Part shown: one piece after another, positions 1 to 38,123 of the stretch
How positions within the stretch are numbered: position 1 is the stretch's first letter
Layout of the letters: each line of letters starts with the position of its first letter
Assembly: GCF_003999195.1 (NCBI RefSeq)
Contig: NZ_RJVR01000294.1
Coordinates: 1 to 64,000 of the forward strand
Length of the DNA: 64,000 nucleotides
From: Streptomyces soli
GTDB lineage: Bacteria; Actinomycetota; Actinomycetes; Streptomycetales; Streptomycetaceae
Reading direction: 5' to 3'
Notes under the pieces: model-generated
The model's input: the letters and a program-made list of their open reading frames with translations, nothing else
What the model was told of the DNA's origin: nothing
Database searches by the model: none
Made by a program: the position numbers and the translations under genes

Positions 1-524
1 GCAGCCGCAGCTCCGCCGTCGCCCCCGGGTTGCACGATGACCCGCGTAGCCGCGATGGTCGCGCTGTCGACCGTCCCCAGGACGAGGACGCTTGCGCCGT
101 TCTTCACGGCGCTCGCCGAGGCGCGGCGGGTTCCTTTCTCGTATTTCGTGGAGGACGCCTCGGTGACGGTCACCTCCACACCCGTTGCCGTCGCAAAGGT
201 GAAGCCCGACGTGGACGTGGTGTCGACGATGCCGGTCGCACCCCCGGCGGCCGGCCCGGACACGGGCCCGCCGCCGGTGGGCGTTGCGGTCGGTGAGGAC
301 GTGGCTGTGGCCGAAAGGGACGACGCGGACGACGAGAAATCCGCCGCAGCGGACGTGCCGGCACCGGTGAGTCCAGCGACCGCACACGTCAGCCCGGCGG
401 CCGTGATCCATCCACCCCTCTTCTTCGACAGCAACCGCCGTACGCTTGGCCGGCGTGCTCGCACGGCCATGGTTGCCGGGGCTGACCCAGCCGACGAGTG
501 GCTTGTCGGGTCGTAGTCGTTCAT
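1..524 (-). CDS. Secreted DUF5666-like protein (3' end outside window)
   Basis: Reading from ATG at 524 gives an open frame that runs off the window start, so the C-terminus is missing. GAGGAG sits 6-10 bases upstream. The product has a cytoplasmic N-terminus of about 40 residues ending in a twin-Lys/Arg stretch (LLSKKRGGW), one hydrophobic segment (ITAAGLTCAVAGLTG) and then a Ser/Thr/Pro/Gly-rich linker. The last visible part (GIVDTTSTSGFTFATATG, then VLVLGTVDSATIAATRV) has the repeated short beta-strand pattern of DUF5666, an OB-like surface domain. It is probably membrane-anchored or exported; function unknown. The plus-strand open frame over the same bases is a shadow. Confidence 0.7.
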   Translation of the reverse strand, partial: MNDYDPTSHSSAGSAPATMAVRARRPSVRRLLSKKRGGWITAAGLTCAVAGLTGAGTSAAADFSSSASSLSATATSSPTATPTGGGPVSGPAAGGATGIVDTTSTSGFTFATATGVEVTVTEASSTKYEKGTRRASASAVKNGASVLVLGTVDSATIAATRVIVQPGGDGGAAA

Positions 525-1100
525 GACGGCTCTCCTCATCGCTTGGACAACTACGCAGAGACTGTCGGCCGTTCCTATGAGGACTCCGTGGTTGACCTGT
601 GATTACTCTGAGCCATCCGGTCCTTAAGAGTTCGCGGCTGCCGCCGTACGCATCTGGCGCCTCGTCAACAAGTCAGAGGACCAGGAGCACGACGAGCTCC
701 CACCGGAATGCGGCCGGGCCCGCATCACACCTCTGGCACTTTTGCGATCCGGAACCCGTCCCGTCCGCCTACGCCTTGCGTCACGCTCTCGGCGGTCGCC
801 GACAGAGTTTGTCGCACGGGAGCTCGTCGAGAACCAGGTTGACGATGAAGTCCTCGAACCGCGGCGGCTCATCATGCCCGTACCCAAGCCGTCACAGGTC
901 GCGGCCGCCGAACAGCGCGCCGATCTTCGGCGGCGACATTCAAATTGAGGTTGAACACTGCTCGGGTCGTTACCGGTGAATCGACAGCTCGGCCCCGGTG
1001 AGTCGTTGTCCTGATCCGCCCCAGTTGAGGGCCATGATCTCGGCCATGATCGACACGGCCGTTTCTTCGGGAGGCACCCTCGCGAGACCCGCACCCTCGA
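525..1100. other. Non-genic stretch with degenerate coding traces
   Basis: No intact gene. Around 790-900 the minus strand has a short GC3-rich stretch (GYGHDEPPRFEDFIVNLVLD) bounded by stops and without a start, so it is probably a gene fragment; I do not recognise it. The longer frames here on both strands have unbiased codon use and look like shadows. 525-600 should contain the promoter of the DUF5666 gene, but no convincing -10/-35 pair is visible. Confidence 0.4.
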
Positions 1101-1439
1101 ATCCACAATATCCAGCTGGGCAAGGCGGCCAGCCGTACGTCCGGTGCGACATCGATCGTGACGCTGATACCGGATGCCCCCGCCTATGCCGACGTGCAGA
1201 CCGTCAACGGCCAGGGCGGGTACTCGGCCGCACAGTGCGACCTCACCATGGTGCCGACCCTGCGGGTCTTCCCGCCGAATCAGACGGAGTCGGCGAACAT
1301 TCCGTGGAACAAGCAGGAATGCGTCGGCTCCACCGTGCAGAACCTGCAGGTCGGCCCGGTGTACGGCAACAAGTACCGTCGGCCCTCGTTATCATCGATC
1401 TCCGGGACATGTACGCGCTCTGCCACGAGGACAGCATGA
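1101..1439 (+). pseudogene. DUF4232 protein, C-terminal fragment
   Basis: The frame through 1101-1380 reads SRTSGATSIVTLIPDAPAYA, later LRVFPPNQTESANIPW and a closing cysteine plus VGPVYGN. This is the second half of actinobacterial DUF4232 domains (the 'vTLaPGasAyA...LRVFPPNqT...Vgp' pattern). There is no signal peptide, no first half and no RBS-linked start, and after about 1380 the frame degenerates. DUF4232 proteins are normally secreted and of unknown role. This is a truncated leftover. Confidence 0.55.
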
Positions 1440-1603
1440 CGTGTCCGCGCCGCCCGGACCGACACCCGGACGGCGCGTCACAACAGGGCGAACGTTGCCT
1501 GATGCGGCAAATGCGGCACTAGATCGTCACCGGCTCTCCTTCGCCGCCGCCCTGCGGGCAACACGCCGCAGCGTCACCACGCTCACCGGTTCTTTTTTCC
1601 CCT

Positions 1604-1744
1604 CACCACCTCGCTGCCGAACTGGCCAATCTCGCCCGTGAACTGGCCCAGGAACTCAATCCGCCACGTCGCCTGCGTGTGCTGACCCGCCAAGCGAAAC
1701 GGAAGATGTCCCGCTTCCTCGCCTGGCACCCCGACCGGCCATAA
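1604..1744 (+). pseudogene. Transposase C-terminal remnant (IS4-like)
   Basis: A 46-codon tail (HHLAAELANLARELAQ, then LNPPRRLRV and KRKMSRFLAWHPDRP before TAA) has the Arg/Lys-rich ending with the KRKMS signature that I associate with IS4-family transposases of Streptomyces. The catalytic part is absent. Family assignment is by resemblance of this tail only. Confidence 0.35.
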
Positions 1745-1848
1745 CCACCCAGGCCACGTCGACGCCCCGCTGAAACACTGCAGGTCGTCCCAGCTACAGC
1801 AGCCAAGCCCAACACCTGAGTCAACGGCATTGAGGTCAAAGATCAAGC

Positions 1849-2766
1849 TCAGGAAAGTAGCTCGTAGGCAAGCGCGGCCACCGCGAGGTCCTCCCAGCCT
1901 GTTCCGACTGACTTGAAGAGCGTGACCTGGGCGGGGTCGATGGTTACGCCCCGAACGAGTTCTGCCAGGTCGGCGATGATGACTGAAGGTGGCACGCCGT
2001 CCGCGAGCGCCATCACGAGGTCTCCCGCTTCGGCGAGCGCGGCATCCCGGGACTCGACCACGACTTGGCTCCGTGCCACGGTCGCGGTTTCCACTTCGCG
2101 TGCGGTGGGCTCGTGCGAGCCGACGACGTTGAGATGCACGCGGTCGCCGATCCAGTCGTCAGGCACGACCGGGCTGCGGGCGGTTGTGCACAGGCACAGG
2201 ACGTGTGCCTGCGGCACGTCGTCGGCGCCGGCCGGATAGGCAGATATTCCTATCTCCACCAATGTCTTGATAAAGGTGTCTGTCGACTCCGGGGTCCGCC
2301 CAAGGACACCGACACGCTGGATGTCGCGCACGGCACGCATGGCGTGCACGTGGCCGAGCGCCTGCGGTCCGGTGCCGGCCACGACCAACTCGGTGGCGTC
2401 CGGCCGGGCGAGATGCCTGGTGGCGACTGCCGAGATCGCGGGTGTCCGCAGCGTGGTGAGCGCGGCGGCGTCGAACAATGCAAGCGGGGTCAGCGAGGCC
2501 GCGTCATGCAGGACGTAGGTGCCCTGGATGCGGGGAAGCCCCCGGGCGGGGTTACCCGGCGCGACGGTGATGAGTTTGATCCCCGCGTAGCGCGGGCTCT
2601 CGCTGGGCATGAGCAGGAACTCACCCGACTGCACCGGAACCGATGTGCGCAGCGGGTCCTGCCCTGGCCAGCCCGCGCGCAACGCGCTCTCCAGCGCGTC
2701 GATCGCTGCGGGGAGGGACACGAGGCCGGTAAGGGTCGGCAGGTCAACGTAGGGTGGGTGGGTCAT
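1849..2766 (-). CDS. Ornithine cyclodeaminase / mu-crystallin family NAD(P)-dependent enzyme
   Basis: 305 aa, about normal length for the family. The Rossmann dinucleotide site (ELVVAGTGPQALGHVHAMRA, about residues 125-144) and the substrate-side stretch GIKLITVAPGN (about 63-73) are typical. Members deaminate ornithine or reduce cyclic imines such as delta-1-pyrroline-2-carboxylate. The start overlaps the stop of the proline racemase-family gene by four bases (ATGA), so they are translationally coupled. Paired with a proline racemase-type enzyme, the best guess is a pyrroline-2-carboxylate or related ketimine reductase in (hydroxy)proline catabolism; lysine or ornithine cyclodeaminase remains possible. 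Last gene of a three-gene minus-strand operon. Confidence 0.85.
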   Translation of the reverse strand: MTHPPYVDLPTLTGLVSLPAAIDALESALRAGWPGQDPLRTSVPVQSGEFLLMPSESPRYAGIKLITVAPGNPARGLPRIQGTYVLHDAASLTPLALFDAAALTTLRTPAISAVATRHLARPDATELVVAGTGPQALGHVHAMRAVRDIQRVGVLGRTPESTDTFIKTLVEIGISAYPAGADDVPQAHVLCLCTTARSPVVPDDWIGDRVHLNVVGSHEPTAREVETATVARSQVVVESRDAALAEAGDLVMALADGVPPSVIIADLAELVRGVTIDPAQVTLFKSVGTGWEDLAVAALAYELLS

Positions 2767-3770
2767 CGCAGTGAGAAGCCTTCTCCAAGCGGGTCCCCGC
2801 TGTCGAGAATGAACCGGTGCTCACCGGTGCGGAAGGCACTCCCCTCGACCTCTGTGTAGTAGCCGGCCCGGCCCAGCGTGGTGGTCGTACCGAGAACGCG
2901 TCCGAGGAACCTCGTGCCCACCACACTGTCGTGGACCAGTTCGCTGTCGATCAGGCGGCCCTCGTCGGCGAGAAGAGCGAGACGGGCGGTGGTGCCGCTG
3001 CCGCACGGTGACCTGTCTACCTCTCCGTCTGCGAACACGGTGCAGCTGCGCTGGTGAGCGCCGCCCTTGGCCGGCCGGGGCAGGTCCTCGTAGAACGTCA
3101 CGCCGTAGATGCCGGACAGGCGGGGATCCGCGGGGTGTTCGGCGGCCTGGCGGGAGTCGAGGGCGGATTTGATCTGGCGGCTCAATGCGATCAAGCGTGG
3201 CAGGTCGCCCGGGGTGACGGCTGCCCCGAGCCGGTCGGCGCGGACCGAGGCGTAGAACGCGCCGCCGTAGGCGATGTCGACCGTCGCGGGGCCGGCGTCG
3301 GTGTCCACGATCACACCTCGGGCGTGCACGAAGGCGGGCACGTTGCGGAAGCCTACCGACCGAGGCTTACCGCCGGTCAAGCGGACGATGGCGCCGACCC
3401 GGCCGGACGGCACATCGATCTGTATCGTCACCTCGCCGTCCGGCGGCGCGTCGACGCGTCCGGTCTCGACCGCCCAGGTACCGAGTGCGATGGTGCCGTG
3501 CCCGCACGCGGTGGAGTAGCCGTCCTTGTGGAAGAAGACCGCCCCGAACGACGCTCCGTCATCGTCGGGCGGGGTGACGAAGCAGCCGTACATGTCGGCG
3601 TGGCCGCGCGGCTCGTGGACCAGCAGCCGGCGGATTCGGTCGATCTCGGCGGACGCGGCGTTCTCCCGGCGGTCCAGCACGGTGGAACCGGTCAGGTCGG
3701 GCGCGCCGCCGGTGACGATCCGGAACGGCTCTCCGGCGGTGTGATAGTCGACGGTGCTGATCTCAAGCAC
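2763..3770 (-). CDS. Proline racemase-family protein (Cys/Cys active site)
   Basis: 335 aa, full length. GTG start at 3770 behind AAGGAG. The two active-site loops are visible: STACGHGTIALG near residue 88 and DRSPCGSGTTAR near residue 255. Cys in both places is the racemase/epimerase arrangement (proline racemase or 4-hydroxyproline 2-epimerase). Trans-3-hydroxyproline dehydratases carry Thr at the second site. The GHGTIALG wording of the first loop, however, resembles the dehydratase-like clade, so the exact reaction is open. It lies 28 bases after the CocE-type hydrolase and overlaps the cyclodeaminase-family gene. Inferred role: inverting or entering prolyl or hydroxyprolyl amino acids released from imported peptides. 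Confidence 0.85.
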   Translation of the reverse strand: MLEISTVDYHTAGEPFRIVTGGAPDLTGSTVLDRRENAASAEIDRIRRLLVHEPRGHADMYGCFVTPPDDDGASFGAVFFHKDGYSTACGHGTIALGTWAVETGRVDAPPDGEVTIQIDVPSGRVGAIVRLTGGKPRSVGFRNVPAFVHARGVIVDTDAGPATVDIAYGGAFYASVRADRLGAAVTPGDLPRLIALSRQIKSALDSRQAAEHPADPRLSGIYGVTFYEDLPRPAKGGAHQRSCTVFADGEVDRSPCGSGTTARLALLADEGRLIDSELVHDSVVGTRFLGRVLGTTTTLGRAGYYTEVEGSAFRTGEHRFILDSGDPLGEGFSLR

Positions 3771-3798
3771 GGGTCTCTCCTTGTGGTGGATCGCTGTT

Positions 3799-5511
3799 TC
3801 AGCCGGTCACATCGGCTGCGGGGATCACGGGCAGGATCAGCCGTGACGGGTGTCCGGCGCTGTGCCAGACGCTGTTCTCGGCGACCTTGCTCTCCACTCC
3901 GGTCGCCAGCGGCCCGCCGGTGTTCAGGTTGCGGTCGTACTTCGGGAAGGTGCTCGAGGAGATCTCCAGCCGGATTTGGTGGCCGGCGCGGAAGACCTGG
4001 GAGGTGCTCCACAGGTGCACCTCGAACTTGTACACCTCGCCGGGTCGCAGGAACCTTTCCTCGTCGAGCCCTTCGCGGAATCGTCCGCGCACGATGCCGT
4101 CATTCAGGCGCTGGCAGAAGCCGTCGGGGTGCACGTCCACGAGCTTGGCGGTGAAGTCGGTGTCCACCGCGTCGCTGGACGCGAACAGCTCCAGGCGGAC
4201 CGGGCCGGTCACCTCCACATCGGTCTCCAGCACAGGGGTGGAGTAGACGAGAACGTCCGCGCGCTCTTCGATCGTGCGGTAGTCGTCGGGTCCGCCGATC
4301 TGGTGTGAGGTCGATGAGGTGATGTACGGCACCGGATCGGCGGGGTCGTAGCGGTAGGTGTCGGCAGGCTCGTCGGTGCCCGGCTGTTCCCAGGTCAGGA
4401 CGCCGTCACCGAACCGGGTGTTCGCGCTGCCGCCGCTGGACAGGTAGAGCGAGGTCCACTTGGTGCGCGCGATCGGCCATTCGTCCTCGCTGCGCCACTG
4501 GTCCTCGCCCATGATGAACAGTTGGGCACGGGGGTCGGCGTGGGCGCCGTTGTCCAGGCCCTTGACGAAGTGGTCGAGGAAGCGCAATTCGTGGCCGTCG
4601 AGGTCGAAGTCCGCGCCGGGGCCGAAGTCGATGGGGCCGAGGGTCCGCTCCCGCCGCCGGGTGAGGCCGTGGTCCCAGGGCCCGACGACGAGCCGCTGGG
4701 CGCGCTGGGTCCGCTCGGTCGGCGCCTGCTTGGTCATCCGGGTGAAGTTGATGAACGTGGCCGGCTGCACGTCGTCGTACCAGCCGGTGACGTGCATGGT
4801 GGGGATGTCGACCTGGCCGAACCGGTGCTGGTAGTTCTTCGGACCCCAGTACTCGGTGTCCGATGGCGAGTGGGACAGATCGTCTCGCCAGTGCTTGCTG
4901 TGGAACCCCGCGTGCTCGTCCAGGCTGAGCAGCGGCAGGTGATCGTAGACCGCGTCCCAGTCGATCCCCTCGACGTACTGCAAGGAACGGCCGTCTATCA
5001 GCCGGAACCAGCAGACCTCCATCGGCAGGTGCACGCCGGTCGGCCACTCCACGAAGGGGTCGGACGGTGGCACGTAGACGATCATCGCCTTCAGGCTCGG
5101 CGGCTGCTCGACCGCGGTCAGCCACTGCACGTAGCCGAGGTAGGACTGCCCCCAGGTGACGACCTGGCCGTCGCACCAGGGCTGCTTGGCGGCCCACTCG
5201 ATGGTGTCGTAGCCGTCGAGCGGCTCGTCGCGGTGTGGCCGGAAGTCCCCCTCCGAGTCGCCGCGTCCCCGTACGTCCATCCAGAGGAAGGCATATCCGC
5301 GCCGCGCCCACCACATGGCTTTGCGGTAGGAGAATTCGGTGTTCTTGCCGTACGGCGTGCGGGCGACGATGACCGGCACGGGAGCGTCGGTGTCGGGCCG
5401 GTACAGGTCGGCAACGAGCACCACGCTGTCACGCATGGCCACCGGGATGTTGAGTTCTTGCCGCACGTTGATTGCGGCGTTCTTGGCGTTTTCCGCGCTT
5501 GACGAGGTCAT
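3799..5511 (-). CDS. CocE/NonD-family (X-Pro dipeptidyl-peptidase S15) hydrolase
   Basis: 570 aa, the usual size. The S15 alpha/beta-hydrolase core is at residues ~30-320: ARTPYGKN, then WMDVRGRGDSEGDF, then the nucleophile elbow TWGQSYLGYVQW (Ser about 124) and the late VVGPWDHG carrying the catalytic His. The C-terminal jelly-roll (X-Pro DAP C domain) starts near residue 330 (VTGPVRLELFASS). Family members cleave X-Pro dipeptides, esters (cocaine esterase) or acyl-amino bonds. There is no signal peptide, so it is cytoplasmic. First gene of the minus-strand operon with proline racemase- and cyclodeaminase-family genes, divergent from a GntR regulator and peptide transporter, which supports action on proline-containing peptides. 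Specificity is inferred from context. Confidence 0.85.
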   Translation of the reverse strand: MTSSSAENAKNAAINVRQELNIPVAMRDSVVLVADLYRPDTDAPVPVIVARTPYGKNTEFSYRKAMWWARRGYAFLWMDVRGRGDSEGDFRPHRDEPLDGYDTIEWAAKQPWCDGQVVTWGQSYLGYVQWLTAVEQPPSLKAMIVYVPPSDPFVEWPTGVHLPMEVCWFRLIDGRSLQYVEGIDWDAVYDHLPLLSLDEHAGFHSKHWRDDLSHSPSDTEYWGPKNYQHRFGQVDIPTMHVTGWYDDVQPATFINFTRMTKQAPTERTQRAQRLVVGPWDHGLTRRRERTLGPIDFGPGADFDLDGHELRFLDHFVKGLDNGAHADPRAQLFIMGEDQWRSEDEWPIARTKWTSLYLSSGGSANTRFGDGVLTWEQPGTDEPADTYRYDPADPVPYITSSTSHQIGGPDDYRTIEERADVLVYSTPVLETDVEVTGPVRLELFASSDAVDTDFTAKLVDVHPDGFCQRLNDGIVRGRFREGLDEERFLRPGEVYKFEVHLWSTSQVFRAGHQIRLEISSSTFPKYDRNLNTGGPLATGVESKVAENSVWHSAGHPSRLILPVIPAADVTG

Positions 5512-26167: not shown

Positions 26168-28765
26168 TCAAGGCAGGGTCTCGACGTACCCGTCGGTTCC
26201 GTGCACGCGGATCCGCTGCCCGTCCCGGATCAGCCGGGTGGCCTGCTCCACGCCCACGACGGCCGGCAAGCCGTACTCCCGGGCGATCACTGCGCCATGG
26301 GTCATCAGGCCGCCCACCTCCGTCACCAGGCCCGCGATTCCGACGAACAGCGGCGACCAACTGGGGTCCGTGAAGGTCGTGACCAGGATGTCGCCCGCTT
26401 CGAGATCGGCCTCCGCCATGTCAAGGATGACGCGGGCCCTTCCCTCGATGGTCCCGGCGGAAACCGGGAGGCCGATCAGGGCGCCGGCCGGCACGTCGTC
26501 GCGCCGGTACGCCCCGGTGACGGCCTCACCATCCGATGTGAGCACCCGGGGCGGTGTGAGCGCGTGGTACGACCGGAACGCGTCCTTGCGCTGCTGGATG
26601 AGCTGGTCATCCACCGGGTTCGAGCGCACGACGTCGTGGAGTTCCTGGAACGTGAGGTAGAAGATGTCCTCCCGCTCAGGAAGCACGCCTGCCTGCACGA
26701 GGCGCTCGGCCTCCGCCAGCAGGGCCTGCTTGTAGACGAAGTAGCGGCTGACGATGCCGTACTTCGGGTACTCCCGGTACCCGATGAAGGTGCGGACCCG
26801 GTCGATCATCCGCTTGGCCTCGTCGGCTTTCCGGTCCCCGTCCGGCAGGGCCCGCAAGCGTGACAGCACGTCCTGTTCCTTCTTCTGCGCCTTCTGCCGC
26901 CCCTGCTCGAAGCGCCGCTCGGCGGCGCCCGGCTCGAAGGTCCTGACGTTGTCGAGGATCACGGGCACGAGCGTGGTGGGGCGCTCGCGCCAACGTGGCC
27001 TCGTGATGTCGATCTCGCCGACGCAGCGCATGCCGTACCGGTCGAGGTAGGCCTGGATGGCGTCGCGCGCTTCGGTCCCGCCCGCGAGCTTCGCCAGCTC
27101 GTCCAGGAAGCCCTCGTTCTCGACGCCCTGCAGGAACGCCACCACCGCCGACTGCGGGCGGATCACGTCGGCGACGTCGAGCAGCGCCAGTCCCATCTCC
27201 GACGTGACGTTGTCGGGGGCGGACAGCGTGAGCGTGTCGGCCGCGTTCTTCTCGCCCAGCCACTCCTGCAGCTTGTCGTTGAGCCACCACGTGGCCTCCA
27301 TCCCCGCCATGATCGCCTGAAGGTTCAGCGGATCACTGAGGACTCGCTTGTGCTCCTCGAAGGCCTCCAGCAGGAAGTCGAACAGCGCCGGTCCGGTCTT
27401 CGTCCGGATGTCGCGCTCCAGGGCGGCGATGGACGCCTGGCTGCGCTCGATCAGCTCGGTGACGATGGCCGGATCGGTCTCGATCGGGGCGGACGCGCCG
27501 CTGGCCGGCGGCCCGCCGGGACCCGCGTCCGGGAGCGACGGGACGAAATCGTCGCGGTCGAGGACGGTCTCCAGAGCGTCCCTGATCAGCGGATCGCCTC
27601 TCCCCATGACGTCCAGGAGGCCGGCGCGGCTCGCGGGCGAGGCCAGGCGCCGGGTGACGTCGACGAACAGCCTCCCGCCGGCCTCGTGCATCGGCACCGT
27701 GGCCGTCAGCTGCCACACGGAGAGCCCCAGGGGCTTCATGGGGTCGGTCATCATCTGCCCATGACCAACGGAGACGTAGACGTGATTCTCCTGGTCGCCG
27801 GTCTCGGGGATGGGGAACAGCGTGGTGATCGGCCGGCTCTGAACGATCTGGAAGCCATCATCGACCAGGCACCATTCGATGTCCTGCGGGCGGCCGAAGT
27901 GCGCTTCGATCCGCCGCCCGAGCTGCACGAGCCGCACGACCTGCGCATCCGTCAGCGCCGGCTGCTCCTGCCGCTGCGAGTCGATCGCCACTTCCTTCGT
28001 ACCGCCAGCCGGCAGGGCGTGAACGGCACGCTGTTTGGCGGCGATCGCCTTGGCGACGACTTCGCCGTGTCGCACCTTGAAGACGTCCGGGTTCACCAGG
28101 CCGGAGACCAGGGCCTCGCCGAGGCCGAAGCTGGCGTCCACGGTGGCGACCTTCCGGTTGCCCGTGACGGGGTCGGCCGTGAACAGGATGCCGGCCGCAT
28201 GCGGGAAGACCATCTGCTGCACGACCACGGCCATGTGGACCGTACGGTGGTCGATGCCGTTCCGCTGGCGGTAGGTCACGGCCCGCTCGGTGAACAGCGA
28301 GGCCCAGCACCGGCTGACGTGCTGGAGGATCGCCGTCGGCCCCACGACGTTCAGGTACGTGTCCTGCTGGCCGGCAAAGGAGGCCGTCGGCAGGTCCTCT
28401 GCCGTCGCGCTGGATCGGACGGCGTAGGCGGCTTGCTCGCCGAGCCGGGCGAGCGCGCGGGTGATCGCCGCCGCGAGATCGCCCGGGATGGCAATCCCTT
28501 CGATGGTCCGACGAATCTGCGCGCTGAGCGTGCGGATCGCCTCCCGGTCGTCCGGGTTCAAGCGCGACAACTGATCGAGCCGATCGTCGATCGACGGCGC
28601 TTCCGCCATGATCCGCCGGAAGGCGTCCGTCGTCACGTAAAAGCCACCCGGCACACGGATGCCTTCGATCCGCGACAGCCCGCCCAGGTGCGCGCCCTTG
28701 CCGCCAACGACCGCAACCTGCATCTCGTCAACCTCTTGAAGATCCAACACGTACTGCTCGATCAT
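26168..28765 (-). CDS. rph: Rifamycin-inactivating phosphotransferase
   Basis: 865 aa, the family's characteristic length (~860-870). ATG at 28765 with CGGAGG 8 bases before. N-terminal PEP-synthase-like ATP-binding domain (VGGKGAHLGGLSR ~22, AYAVRSSATAEDLPTASFAG ~115, IEWCLVDDGFQIVQSRPI ~310), a central helical rifamycin-binding region, and a C-terminal swivelling His domain (TEVGGLMTHGAVIAREYG, catalytic His ~825). Rph transfers the ATP beta-phosphate to the C21 hydroxyl of rifamycins. A rifamycin-associated element lies about 320 bp upstream, and the gene is coupled (ATGA) to a truncated glycosyltransferase frame. Expected phenotype: inducible rifampin resistance. Confidence 0.93.
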   Translation of the reverse strand: MIEQYVLDLQEVDEMQVAVVGGKGAHLGGLSRIEGIRVPGGFYVTTDAFRRIMAEAPSIDDRLDQLSRLNPDDREAIRTLSAQIRRTIEGIAIPGDLAAAITRALARLGEQAAYAVRSSATAEDLPTASFAGQQDTYLNVVGPTAILQHVSRCWASLFTERAVTYRQRNGIDHRTVHMAVVVQQMVFPHAAGILFTADPVTGNRKVATVDASFGLGEALVSGLVNPDVFKVRHGEVVAKAIAAKQRAVHALPAGGTKEVAIDSQRQEQPALTDAQVVRLVQLGRRIEAHFGRPQDIEWCLVDDGFQIVQSRPITTLFPIPETGDQENHVYVSVGHGQMMTDPMKPLGLSVWQLTATVPMHEAGGRLFVDVTRRLASPASRAGLLDVMGRGDPLIRDALETVLDRDDFVPSLPDAGPGGPPASGASAPIETDPAIVTELIERSQASIAALERDIRTKTGPALFDFLLEAFEEHKRVLSDPLNLQAIMAGMEATWWLNDKLQEWLGEKNAADTLTLSAPDNVTSEMGLALLDVADVIRPQSAVVAFLQGVENEGFLDELAKLAGGTEARDAIQAYLDRYGMRCVGEIDITRPRWRERPTTLVPVILDNVRTFEPGAAERRFEQGRQKAQKKEQDVLSRLRALPDGDRKADEAKRMIDRVRTFIGYREYPKYGIVSRYFVYKQALLAEAERLVQAGVLPEREDIFYLTFQELHDVVRSNPVDDQLIQQRKDAFRSYHALTPPRVLTSDGEAVTGAYRRDDVPAGALIGLPVSAGTIEGRARVILDMAEADLEAGDILVTTFTDPSWSPLFVGIAGLVTEVGGLMTHGAVIAREYGLPAVVGVEQATRLIRDGQRIRVHGTDGYVETLP

Positions 28766-30649: not shown

Positions 30650-31405
30650 CTAGTAGTGAGCAGTGGCTGCGACGTCGACCGGGTCCTCGGTGATGTCCAG
30701 CATCTGGATGTCGAGCATGGTCTGGTACACGCGGGGCAGCCGGGTCATGATCGTCTGGCGTGGCAAGTGGAAGACATCGAGCCACACCCCGCCGTTAGGT
30801 GTGCCGCGGCCTTCCCTCATTTCGGTGTAGCAGGCGAGGGCGACGCGATCGGGTGTCGAAAGCTCCGTACGCTCCGGGTCGTAACGGGACATGAACCGCT
30901 CACCGAACGCGTTGCGGAGGATTCCGCCCTCGCCGCGTGCGGCCTCGCTGATGAGGGTTCCGGCCGCGTTCTCGGGCTCGATGATGCCCGGAGGGTGGAA
31001 CTGCACGAACTGCGGATCACGCAGCCGCGCACCGGCCTCGACCGCGAGGCGGAACGAATCGCAGGTGTTCTCTCACGGCGCGGGGAGGTCCGCCGCCAGC
31101 TGCGGTGGTGCCCACCCGCGGCGAGGATGACCGCATCCGCGTGGATGAGATAGCGCGTGCCATCGGTGAGATCAAAGCCGTACGCGCCGAAAACGGCCCC
31201 GTCGTGCACCAAGTTGTCGAGAACCGGGATGTCGAGCTGAGTTGCCCGGTTGATGAGCGTCCGCTGGATCTCGAGGCCCGTGTAGTCGCCCGCGAACGCG
31301 GTGCGGCGGTACGTGTGCGCGCCGAAGAACCGCTGCGAGATCCTCCCGTCGTCCTCACGAGCGAACGGCATCCAATACCGCTCAAGGCCACGGGAGTTGA
31401 TCGAG
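30650..31405 (-). pseudogene. FAD-dependent fumarate reductase/aspartate oxidase-type fragment, frameshifted
   Basis: Two minus-strand frames form one protein. The first (SRGLERYWMPFAREDDGR, GAHTYRRTAFAGDYTG, DAVILAAGGHH) is the middle of the FAD-binding domain of succinate dehydrogenase/fumarate reductase flavoproteins. After a one-base shift near 31070 the second continues with CDSFRLAVEAGARLRDPQFV, QFHPPGIIEPENAAG, and SEAARGEGGILRNAFGERF. The N-terminal GxGxxG FAD site is missing because the 5' end stops at a palindrome at 31420, and the capping and C-terminal domains are short. Dead gene. Confidence 0.7.
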
Positions 31406-31459: not shown

Positions 31460-31665
31460 CAGCTCACCAAGTCGGCGCGGCTGCGGCTGAGTGGGCCCCG
31501 TACAACATCCGGGTCAACGCACTCGCCCCCGGATACGTCAAAACGGAGATGGCCGCAGTCGACGAGCCGCAATTCCGGCAGCACTGCAAGTCGTTGGGTG
31601 CGGCGGATCGGGGCGTCGAGCGGGAGGACAGTGGATGGCCCGTTGCGGGGCCAGGAAGGAGGTAA
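31453..31665 (+). pseudogene. Short-chain dehydrogenase C-terminal fragment
   Basis: Starts inside the palindrome and reads VGAAAAEWAPYNIRVNALAP, GYVKTEMAAVDEPQFRQH: the region of a classical SDR immediately after the YxxxK helix, including the NALAPGYVKTEM signature. The dinucleotide-binding half is missing and after ~35 residues the sequence diverges. The break is exactly at the palindrome, like that of the flavoprotein fragment on the other side. Confidence 0.65.
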
Positions 31666-31759: not shown

Positions 31760-33772
31760 TCAGCCCACCCGCGTGATGGGCGTGCCCTGCCAGCGGCCGT
31801 GTCCCGGCACCCGTTCGGCCGCCATCACCAGCGACCCGGCCCCGACGCTGGCGGCCTCACCGACCACGCTGCCCGGCAGCACGATGCTGCGCGGGCCCAG
31901 GACACTCTCGCGCCCTAGGACCACCGGCTCCAGCCGCATCACGCGGTCGTGGAACAGGTGCGTCTGCAGAACGCAACCCCGGTTTATCACGGCGCCGTCA
32001 GCGACCTTGATCAGGTCGGGCTCCGGGAACCAGTGCGTCTCGCACCACACCCCGCGGCCGATCCGCGCGCCCATGCTACGCAGCCACCAGTTCAGCACGG
32101 GAGTCCCCATCGCGGGCTGGACCAGCCACGGTCCGGCCAGCATCTCCACGAAGACGTCCCACAGCTCGTTACGCCACACGAAGGCGCTCCACAGCGGGTG
32201 GCGTGCCGCCACGAAGCGGCCCATCAGGATCCACTTCGCCGCCGTTGTGATCACTCCCGCGACCACTCCGCCAGCGCACATCAGGAACCCGCCGGCCAGG
32301 ATCGCCCAGCCAGACCCCGCCAGGTCCCAGACGATCAGCATCGCGTACACCAGGGCAAGTTGGAGCAGCCCGGACAGCAGCATCGGGACCACTCGGCACA
32401 GCTCCACGCTGATGCGGGCCATGCGCAGCGAACTGGCCGGTGCGAAGGTTCGAGCCGGGTCGTGGTGTTCGGCTACGCGACGCAGTTCCATGGCCGGACG
32501 TCCCAGCCACGACGAACCCTCTGGCACCTCGGTGGGCGTGTCGGACAGCACCCCGATCAGTGCGCGGTCGCCCACCGTACGGTCGGGACCGACGATGCCG
32601 GAGTTACCGACGAAGGCCATGTCACCCACCCGCGAGTGTCCCAGTCGCACCCAGCCGCCATGCGCCTGGTACGGCGCGGCCAGCACGTCGTCGGCGAGGA
32701 ACGCCCGGTCATCGACCTGCAGCAGCTTTGGCAGGGTGATCACCGTCGACGCCTCGACGGACCGGCCGATCCGCGCACCCAGGATCTGCAGCCACACGGG
32801 CGTGAACAGGCTCGCGTAGAGGGGGAACAGTGCGCCTCTGGCCAGTCCCATCAGATCGTGGGTCAACCACGCGGCCCAGGCCGGCGGGCTGCCAACCGGG
32901 TAGGTGCCAGGCGACAGCCAACGCCCGACCAGCCGGACTGCCAGGGCGATCAACAGCGCCTCGCTGACCATTCCGAGTAGCACCAGCGGCGGCAACCACA
33001 GCAATTGGGACAGGGCCAGGCCGTTCTGGCCGGGGAGCGCTACTTCTACCGACAGCGCGGGGGCGGCGGCAACGGCGAGGAGTATCCCGCGCAGTCCCGG
33101 CGTCAGCGTGTACGCGAGTGACCAGGCGCGCGACCGCTTGGGGTGTGGCGTGTGCCAGCTCGCGCGTGACGGCTGCGGTTGTGCGGGGGATCCGCCCCAG
33201 CACTCACCGGAGGGGACGTGGGTGCCTTCCGTCACCGTGCTGCCGGCCAGCACCTCGCCGCCGTCGCCGACCTGTGCGCCGGGCAGCAGCGTGGCACGTG
33301 CGCCCAGGCTTGCTCCCGCGCCGATGCTCACCTTGCCAACCCGGAGTGTGCCGCCGTCGATCCACCATCCTGCGATGTCCGCCTCCGGGTCCACGCAGGA
33401 GCCGTCGCCGAACTCCGCAAGCCCGGTCGTCGGCGGCAGCGCGCGCAGGTCGACGCCCTTGCCTACTTTGCAGCCCAGCATGCGGGCGTACCAGGCGGCC
33501 AGTGGGGTGCCGGTCAGCGCGCCGAGGCCGATGGCAGCCACGAACCGGTCCGCCGCCCACAGCCGCAGGTGCCGTACGCCGCCGCGCGGGTAGTCACCTG
33601 GCCTGAGCCGTCCGCGCAGCACGCGCGCTCCAGCTGCGGCGATCACCGCACGGGTGGGGGAGAGATACAGCACCAGCCACGGTGGGATCAGCAGCCACCA
33701 GGACATCGTTGGTAGCCACGAGGTGAACCCGAAGGCCTGCAGCACGTTACCGGTCAGCCCGATGGACAGCAC
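31760..33772 (-). CDS. Poly-amino-acid synthetase (Pls-like), membrane C-terminal part, frame-shifted from 33793-35748
   Basis: 670 codons from the first GTG, but conserved sequence in this frame already begins near 33870 (KVPRRRTPWWTGW, LQPVLLSLTALRWV), so the GTG is not a true start and has no RBS. About six hydrophobic helices (e.g. MSWWLLIPPWLVLYLS, ISVELCRVVPMLLSGLLQLA) alternate with three hexapeptide-repeat/left-handed-helix-like segments (VGKVSIGAGASLGARATLLP; VGDMAFVGNSGIVGPDRTVG; LGRESVLGPRSIVLPGSVVG). This is the NRPS terminal domain (TIGR02353) of epsilon-poly-L-lysine synthetase and relatives, where soluble domains between helices catalyse chain elongation. With the upstream ORF it spans ~1329 codons, matching the 1319 residues of Pls. 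Confidence 0.8.
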   Translation of the reverse strand: MLSIGLTGNVLQAFGFTSWLPTMSWWLLIPPWLVLYLSPTRAVIAAAGARVLRGRLRPGDYPRGGVRHLRLWAADRFVAAIGLGALTGTPLAAWYARMLGCKVGKGVDLRALPPTTGLAEFGDGSCVDPEADIAGWWIDGGTLRVGKVSIGAGASLGARATLLPGAQVGDGGEVLAGSTVTEGTHVPSGECWGGSPAQPQPSRASWHTPHPKRSRAWSLAYTLTPGLRGILLAVAAAPALSVEVALPGQNGLALSQLLWLPPLVLLGMVSEALLIALAVRLVGRWLSPGTYPVGSPPAWAAWLTHDLMGLARGALFPLYASLFTPVWLQILGARIGRSVEASTVITLPKLLQVDDRAFLADDVLAAPYQAHGGWVRLGHSRVGDMAFVGNSGIVGPDRTVGDRALIGVLSDTPTEVPEGSSWLGRPAMELRRVAEHHDPARTFAPASSLRMARISVELCRVVPMLLSGLLQLALVYAMLIVWDLAGSGWAILAGGFLMCAGGVVAGVITTAAKWILMGRFVAARHPLWSAFVWRNELWDVFVEMLAGPWLVQPAMGTPVLNWWLRSMGARIGRGVWCETHWFPEPDLIKVADGAVINRGCVLQTHLFHDRVMRLEPVVLGRESVLGPRSIVLPGSVVGEAASVGAGSLVMAAERVPGHGRWQGTPITRVG

Positions 33773-33792
33773 CCAGCGCAGTGCGGTGAGGC

Positions 33793-35748
33793 TCAGCAGT
33801 ACCGGCTGAAGGGCGGTCTGGACCCATCCGGTCCACCACGGCGTCCTCCGGCGTGGGACTTTCCGCGTTTCATGGCCACGGCCGACGTTCCGTTTTCCGC
33901 AGCGTCGGCCTGCTGCAGGGCGAGGGTGGGCTCGACCGCCACCAGGCGGGAGCGCAGTGCCCTTGGAGTCGGATTCCGGTACAGGTCTGCCACCGACACC
34001 TCGGGGAAGCGTTCGCGTAGTGAGGACACCAGCCGCGCAGCGGCCAGGCTCGTGCCGCCGAGGCCGAAGAAGTCGTCGTCCAACCCGGCCTCGCTGCCCA
34101 TCAGGTCACCCCAGACCGTGAGCAGCCACGCCGTGGCCTCGTCCTGCGGGGTCGAGTCATCGGCCAGGTCGCTGGCCGTGTCGTCGGCCGCGGCTGCGGT
34201 CCGCTCAGCGGGCAGCGGCCACGGTAGGGCGTCGCGGTCGGCCTTACCGGAGCCTCGGGTGGGGAACTCGGCCAGCACTGCAAGGCGCGGGACAAGGGCG
34301 GCGGGCAACTGCTCACGCAGCCGCCGGGCGGCGTCCACCCGGTCGAAGCGTGCCGGTTGGCCGTCGGACGGCGCCACGTAGCCGACGAGAACGTCCAGTC
34401 CACCGGCGGTCCGCCGAACCATGGCCGCGGCGGCTGCCACTCCGGGCAGGTCGAGCAACGCGGCCTCGATCTCGCCGAGTTCGACCCGCCGTCCGCCGAT
34501 CTTGACCTGGTTGTCGGCTCGGCCGACGAAGAACAGTCCCCGCGGATCAGCCCGCACCATGTCCCCGCTGCGGTAGGCCCGCGGCCAGCCCAGCGAGGGC
34601 AGGGGTGCGAACCGCTCCGCGTCCTTGACCTGGTCCAGGTAACGACCGAGGCCGACGCCGCCGATCACCAGCTCGCCGGTCTCACCCCAGCTCACCGGTT
34701 CACCGTCCGGGGCGACCACGGCTAGCTCCCAGCCGTCCAACGGCAGGCCGATCCTGACCGGTTCACCGTCCACCAATTGGGTCGCGCAGGAAACCACGGT
34801 CGCCTCGGTCGGACCGTAGGTGTTCCACACCTCACGTCCGTCGTGAGCGAAGCGTCGCACCACCTCCGGCGGGCACGCTTCACCACCGACGATCAGCAGT
34901 CGGACCTCGGCCAGCATCTCCCGGGACCAGAGCGCGGCAAGGGTGGGGACCGTGGAGACTACGCTGATCCGCTTGTCCTGCAACCACGGTCCGAGGTCCG
35001 TGCCGGTTCGCACCAGCGAGCGCGGGGCGGGCACCAGGCAGGCGCCGTTCCGCCAAGCCAGCCACATCTCCTCGCACGAGGCGTCGAACGCCACCGAGAG
35101 CCCAGCCAGGACCCGGTCGCCCGGACCGATCGGCGCGTTCAGCAGGAGCAATCGCGCCTCGGCGTCCACGAACGCCGCAGCCGAACGGTGGCTTACCGCC
35201 ACACCCTTAGGTTTGCCGGTCGAGCCGGAGGTGAAGATGATCCACGCGTCGTCCTGCGGGCCCGGCGTGCCTTTCCGGCTACCCGGTTCGACTACGGGAC
35301 TGAGGGTGAGTTCGTGTCCGGCGCCGAGCACCGCGCACACCTCACCCTCACTCCAGACCAGCGCAGCCCGTTCGTCCGGGTCATCCGCGTCGACCGGCAC
35401 GTATGCGGCGCCCACAGTGAGGACGGCGAGAATCGCCGTGTACAGGGCCGCACCGCCTGACGGCATACGGACCCCGACACGGTCGCCCACTCCGACACCC
35501 GCGGCGCGCAGTACCTGCGCCCCCCGGGCCACCTCACGGCCGAGATCCCAGTAGGTGAGGGCGACTTCTCCGTCGTCCAGGGCGATGGCCTTCGGCCACG
35601 TGGCGACCGAATAGTCCAGAATATCGATCAAAGTCCGCGCAGGTGCCGCCGAACCCGATGGATACACGGCCTTCCGTGACCCGAGTACCATGCCCTGCGG
35701 ATCAATTCCCAAAGATTCTATTTCCTTCACGCGAATCTCAGGTTTCAC
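33793..35748 (-). CDS. Poly-amino-acid synthetase (Pls-like), adenylation-thiolation part
   Basis: 651 aa. GTG at 35748 behind AGAGGA; an upstream ATG at 35874 lacks an RBS. Adenylation domain: A3 FTSGSTGKPKGVAVSHRS, A4 SVAFDASCEEMWLAW, A5 VWNTYGPTEATVV, A7 YRSGDMVRADPRG, A8 FVGRADNQVKIGGRRVELGE, A10 near PTRGSGKADRDALP. The specificity residues seen at A4 (Asp235, Ala236, Glu239 in GrsA numbering) fit a basic amino acid such as Lys, but this is not proof. Thiolation motif DDDFFGLGGTSLAAARL with the phosphopantetheine Ser at ~567. Then the frame closes in the linker before the membrane region, where a -1 shift rejoins the next ORF. A pseudogene, assembly error or split synthetase are all possible. 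Confidence 0.85.
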   Translation of the reverse strand: MKPEIRVKEIESLGIDPQGMVLGSRKAVYPSGSAAPARTLIDILDYSVATWPKAIALDDGEVALTYWDLGREVARGAQVLRAAGVGVGDRVGVRMPSGGAALYTAILAVLTVGAAYVPVDADDPDERAALVWSEGEVCAVLGAGHELTLSPVVEPGSRKGTPGPQDDAWIIFTSGSTGKPKGVAVSHRSAAAFVDAEARLLLLNAPIGPGDRVLAGLSVAFDASCEEMWLAWRNGACLVPAPRSLVRTGTDLGPWLQDKRISVVSTVPTLAALWSREMLAEVRLLIVGGEACPPEVVRRFAHDGREVWNTYGPTEATVVSCATQLVDGEPVRIGLPLDGWELAVVAPDGEPVSWGETGELVIGGVGLGRYLDQVKDAERFAPLPSLGWPRAYRSGDMVRADPRGLFFVGRADNQVKIGGRRVELGEIEAALLDLPGVAAAAAMVRRTAGGLDVLVGYVAPSDGQPARFDRVDAARRLREQLPAALVPRLAVLAEFPTRGSGKADRDALPWPLPAERTAAAADDTASDLADDSTPQDEATAWLLTVWGDLMGSEAGLDDDFFGLGGTSLAAARLVSSLRERFPEVSVADLYRNPTPRALRSRLVAVEPTLALQQADAAENGTSAVAMKRGKSHAGGRRGGPDGSRPPFSRYC

Positions 35749-36224
35749 TTTTCCTCTACCTTTCGGAACGTCGGCTAATGAATTCCACGCAGGTGGCACT
35801 ACTTCAGAGTTCCGTCTGCCGGTCTGCGGCAACGGGCGAACAGCCACTCCAACCCGTGACGACCTCAGCCACATTCTGTGTAAATTCTTTATGAAATCGA
35901 CACGTGATGATCATGCATATGACCTGGTGCTTTGACATTTCCAGTAATCATCGGGAGGCCGGTCGTGGCGCGTTTCCCACGGTATGTAAGGTATCCAGAG
36001 AGGCGGCTTGAAATTTTATCCGTACTTGGCTGCGACGTCGCGTTACAGGGTCTTCGAATTTAAGCGGTGAGGGGTGCTGTCCTCGCCACGCTGGTTGCAC
36101 CATGTGACGGTCTGCTGGTGCTTGTGGCCTGAACGTAGACCGCCCGCGGCGTTGAGACGTGGCACTGCGGGTGCCGATTGATCTCGATCCCTCGCGTCGA
36201 TGGAGCCGCAGTGGATTTCGACAA
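35749..36224. promoter_or_regulatory. Upstream region of the Pls-like gene
   Basis: About 475 bp, AT-rich for this genome (for example ATTCTGTGTAAATTCTTTATG near 35872 and TCATGCATATGACC near 35911), with no supported gene. Probably the promoter region of the synthetase. No binding motif recognised. Confidence 0.45.
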
Positions 36225-36335
36225 GGGGCCGTAGAACGCGGCCTCGCCCTCGGCTGCCGCGTAGGGAAGGCCGGAGCGGTCGAGGCCGTCGGTCAGCAGC
36301 GCGGTGGACCGGTGCCACATCTCGGCCTCGATTGA
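36225..36335 (-). pseudogene. Threonyl-tRNA synthetase fragment
   Basis: One open stretch of ~37 codons reads EAEMWHRSTALLTDGLDRSG followed by LPYAAAEGEAAFYGP. The EGEAAFYGPK-type motif preceded by W-(5)-L-(3)-L is specific to the class II catalytic core of ThrRS. Motif 2 and 3 and the anticodon domain are absent, and the frame degrades after AFYGP. Lies between the Pls-like gene and the Gly/Tyr-rich peptide. A remnant of a second (possibly resistance) ThrRS or of the housekeeping gene copied here. Confidence 0.5.
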
Positions 36336-36582
36336 TCAGCGGCCGTACCCGTAGCTGGCGTAGCCGCCGTGGCCGTAGCCGCCACCGCCGTACTGGTAGG
36401 CGGTGGGCATGAGCGACGTGGTGGTGACGGTGGATGACGCGGTGTGGGTTGCTGCCGCAGGCGTGGCCGCCTCGGCAGCACCGGCGCCGCACCGGCGCCG
36501 CACCGGCGCCGACCAGTGCCAGCAGGGGGGCTGCGATCGCAGCGACGGACAGTCGGCGAACCTTGGGGGTCTTCGCGAACAT
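36336..36582 (-). pseudogene. Secreted Gly/Tyr-rich small protein, frameshifted in an 11-bp repeat
   Basis: ATG at 36582 with GGAAGGA upstream starts a signal peptide (MFAKTPKVRRLSVAAIAA, PLLALVGAG). In the present sequence the frame then enters an Arg/Cys-rich nonsense stretch. A frame offset by one base gives the natural continuation: AAEAATPAAATHTASSTV, LMPTAYQYGGGGYG, HGGYASYGYGR, stop at 36336. The switch point is a tandem 11-bp repeat (36481-36512). Losing two copies or gaining one restores a ~75-residue exported protein ending in a Gly/Tyr tail. No family known to me. Confidence 0.6.
36481..36512. repeat. Tandem 11-bp repeat, 2.9 copies
   Basis: CCGGCGCCGCA, CCGGCGCCGCA, CCGGCGCCGA in direct succession inside the signal-peptide end of the Gly/Tyr-rich small protein gene. 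Since 11 is not a multiple of 3, any change in copy number changes the reading frame; the copy number seen here is out of frame. Confidence 0.85.
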
Positions 36583-37567
36583 GTTGGTTGTTCCTTCCAA
36601 GGTGTGTGAGTGGTGATCAGCGGACCCGGAGAGTCGGGTCCTTGTGCCCCGGATCCTGCGCGGAGCCCGGGCACGGTGCCCTTCGGTTGACCGTTGAACC
36701 CGACTAATGCGACATTACGCCCAGATTAGAACAAGTCAAGTAATATATGTAAACTATTGTTAGAATCAGTCTAAGTTTGCTCGGTCTGGCTGCGGGGGAT
36801 GCCGCCCGCCCGCGCGTGAAGGGAGTTGACTGACCGTCATCTGTCTGCCGCACCAGGAGGCCCGCACCGGCCGGGGTGCTGCCGTCGGTCGCGCCGTGGA
36901 GCCAGGGTTGGACATGCGGGTGAGCGCGCAGAATTGGCACCGAAGGCTGCACATCCCGCGCTGTGCCCGAGAGTGGCACGGCGCCCAGGGGGCGGCAGGT
37001 ATTTGGGTTCGGATGAAGCTGCGTTCACATGTTCACGTGCCCCACCTCTCGGTGGGTGGCCGTGGGGGTTGCGGGCGGTCGCATCGGCGCGGACCTGGCG
37101 CGGTCCGACGCGAAGTCGTCATCACCGAACCATCGAAAAGTGGGTAAGAACGGCACCTGCGGACTCCCGGTGAGTCCGAGCGACGCCTCCTCCGGTGCGC
37201 AAGAGGTGCCGCCGGCGCATCCTGCAAGACCAACGACCCCGACGTGCACACTGCCGGAACGCCGGAACATGTCTCCACGTACAGACTCAAGAGGGCGCAT
37301 CCGTCCTTTATGCCCGCCTTCAGGTATTTTTCGCATCCTGGAACAGGAGCGCAGCGCCACACGGCTTCCCGGGTCTGACCTGGCGTGACGCGCTCACCCG
37401 GCTCCAGAACGCCCTCACGCGTGTCCGGTTCGAGTCGGGCGATGCCCTTACCCACCGAGGTGATCCACAGGACCCCGTTGTCCAGGTCCCCGGGCTGCTC
37501 CTTCGTCAGGTAGTCATTGGCGCGGCCAGGGACCATGGAGCCCGTAACTTTTGCCGTCCGGATATTA
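36583..37567. other. Long stretch without a supported gene
   Basis: 36700-36780 is AT-rich (AAGTAATATATGTAAAC) and likely carries the promoter of the small secreted protein. At ~37380-37540 the minus strand has a GC3-biased open stretch (MVPGRANDYLTKEQPGDLD, GVLWITSVGKGIARLEPD, REGVLEPGERVTPGQ) that may be a gene fragment; both ends degrade and I do not recognise it. The remainder looks non-coding. Confidence 0.35.
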
Positions 37568-37592
37568 GTTGCTTGACAAAATGAATCAACCT
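37568..37592 (+). promoter_or_regulatory. Putative ROK-regulator operator, copy 1
   Basis: GTTGCTTGACAAAATGAATC plus AACCT. It contains inverted ends GTTGCTT and AATCAAC and a TTGACA -35-like hexamer. 19 of 25 bases match the sequence at 39436-39460 in front of the sugar ABC operon. Located about 175 bp before the small ORF and the ROK gene. Confidence 0.5.
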
Positions 37593-37765
37593 CGCGCAGG
37601 CTTTCCTCGCGGAGTTTCTGATGGCGTAGAGCGGCATGGCACGCAGACCGGCGACACCGCGTGCCGGGACGCGGTGGTCGGCGGTGCAGAAGGCCGCCGG
37701 GTTCATCGCGGGTGGAATCGGGGCGGGCGGCTTCGGCCGGTGGCAATTCGATCTGGGAGGAAAAC

Positions 37766-38041
37766 ATGGAGTACAACTTCTGGGGCGGTACGTGGGTGCA
37801 GGACGCCGACCTCACGTCCTGTCGCTCCGCAGTGGGATCCGGCGACGGGGCGGGTCGACTGGCCGTCCCCCGTCCGGTGTTGGCGAGCGGGGGCACCACC
37901 GGCGGCACGGTCGCCCCGCTGCTGGTCTCACTGGAGCACCAGAACCCGGCCACCCTGGCCTGGACCGACGACGACGACGTGGCGCTGCGCTACCGGCTCA
38001 CCGACTCGGCCACCGGCGCGCTCTACGGCAACGTGAGGTAG
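37766..38041 (+). CDS. Small protein of unknown function
   Basis: 91 aa. ATG at 37766 with GGGAGG 7 bases upstream. Starts MEYNFWGGTWVQDADLTSC and contains VAPLLVSLEHQNPATLAWTD and VALRYRLTDSATGALYGN; codon use is typical for the genome. I recognise no domain. It lies after an operator-like site and 82 bases before the ROK gene, so it is probably in the same regulon. Could be a short carbohydrate-related accessory protein or a truncated enzyme start. Confidence 0.5.
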   Translation: MEYNFWGGTWVQDADLTSCRSAVGSGDGAGRLAVPRPVLASGGTTGGTVAPLLVSLEHQNPATLAWTDDDDVALRYRLTDSATGALYGNVR

Positions 38042-38123
38042 CGCGAGGCGTCCGCCCCCGAACGCGCCGCACAATCGTCCAATGCAGTCACCACAAGACC
38101 CGGCCCAGCAAGGAAGTTCCGCC

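Follow-up and report, generated by a model that had tools for sequence, protein, structure and literature searches.

When the two halves of a poly-amino-acid synthetase are written in different reading frames, is the gene a working two-part enzyme, a broken gene or an error in the record? We asked this of a 64,000-nucleotide stretch of Streptomyces soli DNA (contig NZ_RJVR01000294.1; the whole stretch is called the window), in which the minus strand between 31760 and 35748 carries the parts of a gene like that of the epsilon-poly-L-lysine synthetase Pls in two open reading frames (ORFs). An earlier note on this DNA had left three options: lost polymer production, a sequencing error or a two-polypeptide synthetase. 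On the sequence evidence, the locus is a Pls/PosA-family gene with a single frame break in its linker, and we consider it probable that this is a disabled spare copy whose frame was broken recently. Of the earlier options, a sequencing error has a distinctly smaller chance than a true mutation, lost production does not follow from the break, and a two-polypeptide synthetase finds no support.

Domains of a Pls-type gene in two reading frames

The A-T ORF (adenylation plus thiolation; 33793..35748, minus strand) matched TIGR01733 with 326 bits, together with PF00501, PF13193 and PF00550, and holds its two domains in the order required of Pls/PosA-type synthetases, adenylation before thiolation. 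It ends at the stop at 33793, and its start is more likely GTG 35748, giving about 651 aa, than ATG 35874, giving 693 aa; the sequence upstream of GTG 35748 reads GTAGAGGAAAA. The Pls/PosA-type membrane (terminal) domain follows at 31760..33843 on the same strand. Its first in-frame ATG, GTG or TTG is GTG 33772, and read from there the ORF scored 615.8 bits against TIGR02353, rising to 626.8 bits when the frame was read from 33823 to its end at 31760. Both values exceed the cut-off of 423.1, and this alignment, proposed earlier as the test of the Pls-type family, confirms that assignment. Pls/PosA-type synthetases are expected to carry three tandem acetyltransferase-like domains and six membrane helices; in the membrane ORF, a hexapeptide match covers residues 617–649, and a second, at 148–181, falls below the cut-off. 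Both ORFs, their order on the minus strand and the stated length were recovered, the 3989 bases between 31760 and 35748 amounting to about 1329 codons. The domains of this Pls-type gene are not all in one reading frame: the ORF coordinates put the membrane part at −1 relative to the A-T frame, a net change of −1 between the two parts.

The frame change was placed by protein and DNA alignments in a variable linker between the thiolation domain and the membrane part (33845..33952, minus strand). The A-T frame aligns with relatives as far as the end of the thiolation domain, at about 33952, and the membrane frame aligns with them from the motif TPWWTGW, at about 33845; the stretch between is of variable length and low conservation (protein alignment of 23 rows, with row L016 left out of account). 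This interval agrees with the 33865–33960 given previously, and with a single −1 shift. Conservation does continue 5' of the first GTG, as had been noted, but not over 33 codons: the TIGR02353 match begins 17 codons upstream of GTG 33772, and the resemblance to relatives is plain over about 24 codons upstream (TPWWTGW) and weak as far as about 31 (RKV).

The adenylation (A) domain has a whole pocket. The window copy has the code DAESIGTVV at the nine pocket positions, as do a second Pls copy of the same genome and 7WEW, the A domain of the epsilon-poly-L-lysine synthetase Pls; the positions were read by pattern with GrsA numbering, consistent with the code of PosA in PMC10522769. The same code was found in 51 of 62 rows, two rows not being fully readable and some of the odd codes perhaps being misreadings. 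According to that paper, the second code position is Ala in lysine-activating members, Met in PosA and Phe in diaminopropionate and diaminobutyrate enzymes. Since the window copy shares its code with 7WEW and has Ala at this position, the monomer is likely lysine. The Asp, Ala and Glu at the A4 motif, from which a cationic monomer had been surmised, are present, and the match to 7WEW supports such a lysine-like pocket.

Continuity of the gene in relatives

If the split were an old feature of the family, relatives should share it. In a genus search of 35 genomes, 21 had a match, and the 23 other rows scoring 600 bits or more all carried the gene in one open frame (1301–1503 aa). A family search of 394 genomes gave matches in 259; among the 150 matches listed, continuity, measured by open-frame length alone, extended over at least 1286 aa in 147. 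The three shorter ones were the window copy (781 aa) and those of genomes G046 (1065 aa) and G194 (687 aa). The G046 copy is cut off at a contig edge, its A-T match starting at contig base 2, and keeps the A-T and membrane parts in one frame. In the G194 copy (L104:2562-6432) the change of frame falls early in the membrane part, inside roughly its first 98 residues. Isolated breaks therefore occur in the Pls family, although no other row listed shares the one seen here. An ancestral split, which we tried as a candidate explanation, is thus counted against by the linkers of relatives, which run in one frame.

A contig scan of genomes returned 10 loci. Membrane-part identity was 61–64% for Streptomyces harbinensis, Streptomyces specialis and Amycolatopsis saalfeldensis, and in the same range for genome G237. 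The gene runs uninterrupted in S. harbinensis and A. saalfeldensis, which like G237 have one ORF of about 1300–1325 codons; the S. specialis contig starts about 100 bases before the membrane match, so that any A-T part would lie beyond the contig. Relative to intact relatives the window copy has a broken frame, one mark of a pseudogene.

The closest relative found, in Streptomyces alanosinicus JCM 4714 (L044:8384-10681), shows 80% DNA identity across 1,048 A-T columns, 81% across 341 columns at the membrane end and 72% across 509 columns of the linker region. Its linker is in one frame throughout. About 1.48 kb of its membrane part is absent, however, and the A-T match begins no earlier than residue 193, the beginning of the A domain being missing, so that this copy, as read from its record, is also broken, at other places. 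The damage may reflect a fault in the assembly of that record.

A quick tree of 62 A-T rows, with SH-aLRT (Shimodaira–Hasegawa-like approximate likelihood-ratio test) values as the only support, placed the window copy in a seven-row clade (support 100) together with S. alanosinicus, S. harbinensis (twice, once as G112), G237 (twice) and A. saalfeldensis. The window copy is thus a second copy from a small clade scattered over a few Streptomyces and one Amycolatopsis, and the orphan position proposed for it is supported; the scatter suggests that it was acquired by horizontal transfer. In a DNA search of 392 genomes of the genus of G112 (51 not scored), 151 of 341 matched at 1e-100, with identities of at most 75% among the matches listed, the longest of them being G112 itself (72% over query positions 285–4090). 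Of 70 genomes in the genus of G136, seven matched at 1e-240, again at no more than 75% identity. A plasmid collection yielded 221 matching records, 34 of them with a best place of 80–90% identity; in none did a single place span 80% of the query. A DNA pattern search and a tRNA search gave nothing of use, and a search for literature on polylysine synthetase together with a frameshift found nothing.

Mutation or sequencing error

A sequencing or assembly error would leave the gene continuous in the organism, encoding a normal Pls-type enzyme; we regard this as possible but rather doubtful. The assembly is a draft of 412 contigs (completeness 99.66%), the gene has no other lesion, its pocket and domains are whole and its nonsynonymous divergence (dN) is not clearly raised, all of which an error would fit. 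Against it, the interval 33850–33960 holds no long homopolymer, its longest single-base run being four A. The same run length led us to reject transcriptional slippage as a candidate. As assembly controls, rpoB and rpoC each occupy one open frame (1194 and 1301 aa), as does the second Pls copy in each of its pieces. These three argue against gross insertion or deletion error in the assembly and are compatible with a local one.

The neighbouring gene bears on the same choice. Past the 3' end of the Pls-type gene on the same strand is a FAD_binding_2 flavoprotein relic (30653-31371, minus strand), which lies in two frames and lacks both ends, its two pieces covering profile positions 99-209 and 227-368 of 414. 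A single slip of base calling does not explain a neighbour that is both truncated and shifted. Because this neighbour has decayed too, and because the copy of the closest relative is independently broken, we favour a true mutation over an error.

The age of such a mutation was approached through divergence, which is rough here, synonymous divergence being 0.5–0.8. For the A-T part, dN to S. harbinensis was 0.174 in the window copy and 0.169 in S. alanosinicus; for the membrane part, dN to Amycolatopsis was 0.337 in the window copy, 0.328 in S. harbinensis and 0.305 in G237. The relaxed amino-acid constraint expected of a pseudogene was thus not apparent as a clear dN excess in either part, which means that the shift is recent, or is an error, or that the gene still works. 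A long-dead pseudogene is counted against by the same values.

Several points weigh against a disabled gene. It carries no second lesion, and its dN is about that between intact relatives, an outcome also to be expected of an error or of a working gene. At 412 contigs the assembly is fragmented, and the controls cover few genes. GC content at third codon positions (GC3) is 0.81 and 0.85 in the window copy, compared with 0.935 in the C103 piece of the second copy and 0.91–0.94 in three relatives, and other ORFs of the window go down to 0.82; the low values, a hint at most, would fit decay and foreign origin alike.

Recoding or two polypeptides

Alternatively, the split could be in use, the membrane part being made by reinitiation or by −1 frameshifting to give a two-polypeptide or a fused synthetase. 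The direction of the shift, −1, would suit this, and both halves look constrained by dN. We nevertheless find it improbable. A strict scan of the A-T frame from 34000 to 33793 for an X XXY YYZ heptamer found none, in agreement with the earlier reading that no canonical slippery heptamer is visible, and four partial ones. A start-codon scan of the membrane frame found no ATG, GTG or TTG from the stop at 34108 up to GTG 33772, and upstream of that GTG there is no Shine-Dalgarno-like sequence; this GTG, moreover, sits inside the first hydrophobic stretch as read from the sequence. Among the matches listed in the family search, no other row is broken at this place. Programmed frameshifting was rejected on the missing strict heptamer and on this singularity, and reinitiation on the missing start codon and Shine-Dalgarno sequence before GTG 33772. 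With no usable start and a linker in one frame in the relatives examined, the two-polypeptide synthetase once offered as an option finds no backing.

Separate A domains do occur in the wider family, which speaks for a used split. Two same-genus genomes, G008 and G025, have ORFs of 975 and 982 aa (L033 and L034, respectively) that combine a thiolation domain with a membrane part and, by eye, have no A domain in frame; in the genus search they were 27% identical to the query. Likewise, PMC9606270 describes a stand-alone A domain, ORF19, for streptothricin. In the A-less ORFs, however, the thiolation domain stays with the membrane part, while here it stays with the A domain. As a separate observation, an ORF that reads by eye like a nonribosomal peptide synthetase comes after L033 and L034, and G025 had five matches in the genus search, four of the weaker kind to which these two ORFs belong.

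There is a still slimmer chance that a lysine-loading A-T protein would act in trans, its partner being either a membrane polymerase translated on its own or the other Pls copy in this genome, in a Pls system divided between carrier and membrane part. Were the split in use, Pls would here be naturally divided into a loading and a polymerising half.

A second Pls copy in the genome

The second Pls copy spans two contig ends with a 90-base overlap (L099:4510-7095 on contig C103 and L098:3978-6775 on contig C193). Both pieces have a single open frame, and the overlap covers the same 30 query residues in both. The second copy groups with the copies of the genus in the A-T tree (85% identical to that of G029) and is followed by an ORF with Peptidase_M1 domains; none of the 20 window ORFs scanned has such a domain. 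The order pls then pldII is described in PMC8117764, and the second copy with its M1 peptidase ORF is likely such a pls-pldII pair.

Lost polymer production, one of the options raised for this strain, does not follow from the broken frame: a second, one-frame copy lies beside an M1 peptidase elsewhere in the genome, and any polymer would more probably come from that copy. A break in one copy does not turn a strain into a non-producer when the same genome holds another with the canonical peptidase neighbour.

Surroundings of the gene

Besides the flavoprotein relic, there is on the plus strand a stretch of 54 codons (31501-31662) resembling the C-terminal part of a short-chain dehydrogenase, a weak match below the Pfam cut-off. 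On the other side of the gene, 35875-38081 (about 2.2 kb) contains no coding-like ORF by base composition. Altogether, the surroundings of the Pls-type gene look like a decaying stretch. Further along the minus strand, 26168-28765 encodes an 865-aa protein with PPDK_N and PEP-utilizers domains, a layout that we take to be that of rifampicin phosphotransferases.

A probably disabled member of a known family

The disabled-gene reading draws together the single frame of relatives, the missing heptamer, start and Shine-Dalgarno sequence, the decayed neighbour, the breaks elsewhere in the family and the assembly controls. The disabling event would have been a small insertion or deletion, of recent date, in the linker from carrier to membrane part. 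As written, the ribosome would make an A-T protein of about 650–690 residues. Such a protein could still activate lysine and load it, yet it would lack the polymerising membrane part, itself left without a usable start of its own; the window copy has presumably lost its activity. Most likely, it is an ordinary, if new, addition to a known family rather than a novel two-part enzyme. This is mostly bookkeeping: a well-known family of polymer synthetases gains a broken member, in a small clade in which two of the members examined, the window and S. alanosinicus copies, are damaged in different ways.

Among known systems, the closest is the epsilon-poly-L-lysine synthetase Pls, which has the same order of A, thiolation and TIGR02353 domains and identical residues at the nine pocket positions; 7WEW, its A domain, is the best match of the window A domain among solved structures (644 bits). 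The window copy differs from Pls in its broken linker frame and in belonging to a deep separate clade of the A-T tree. Within that clade, the copies of S. harbinensis, G237 and A. saalfeldensis are each one continuous ORF, and that of S. alanosinicus, although also broken, keeps its linker in one frame, unlike the window copy. PosA, the delta-poly-L-ornithine synthetase of Acinetobacter baumannii, belongs to the same family and conserves the pocket Asp and Glu, but has Met at the second code position where the window copy has Ala (PMC10522769), and its structure 8g95 matches the window A domain with 186 bits, much below 7WEW.

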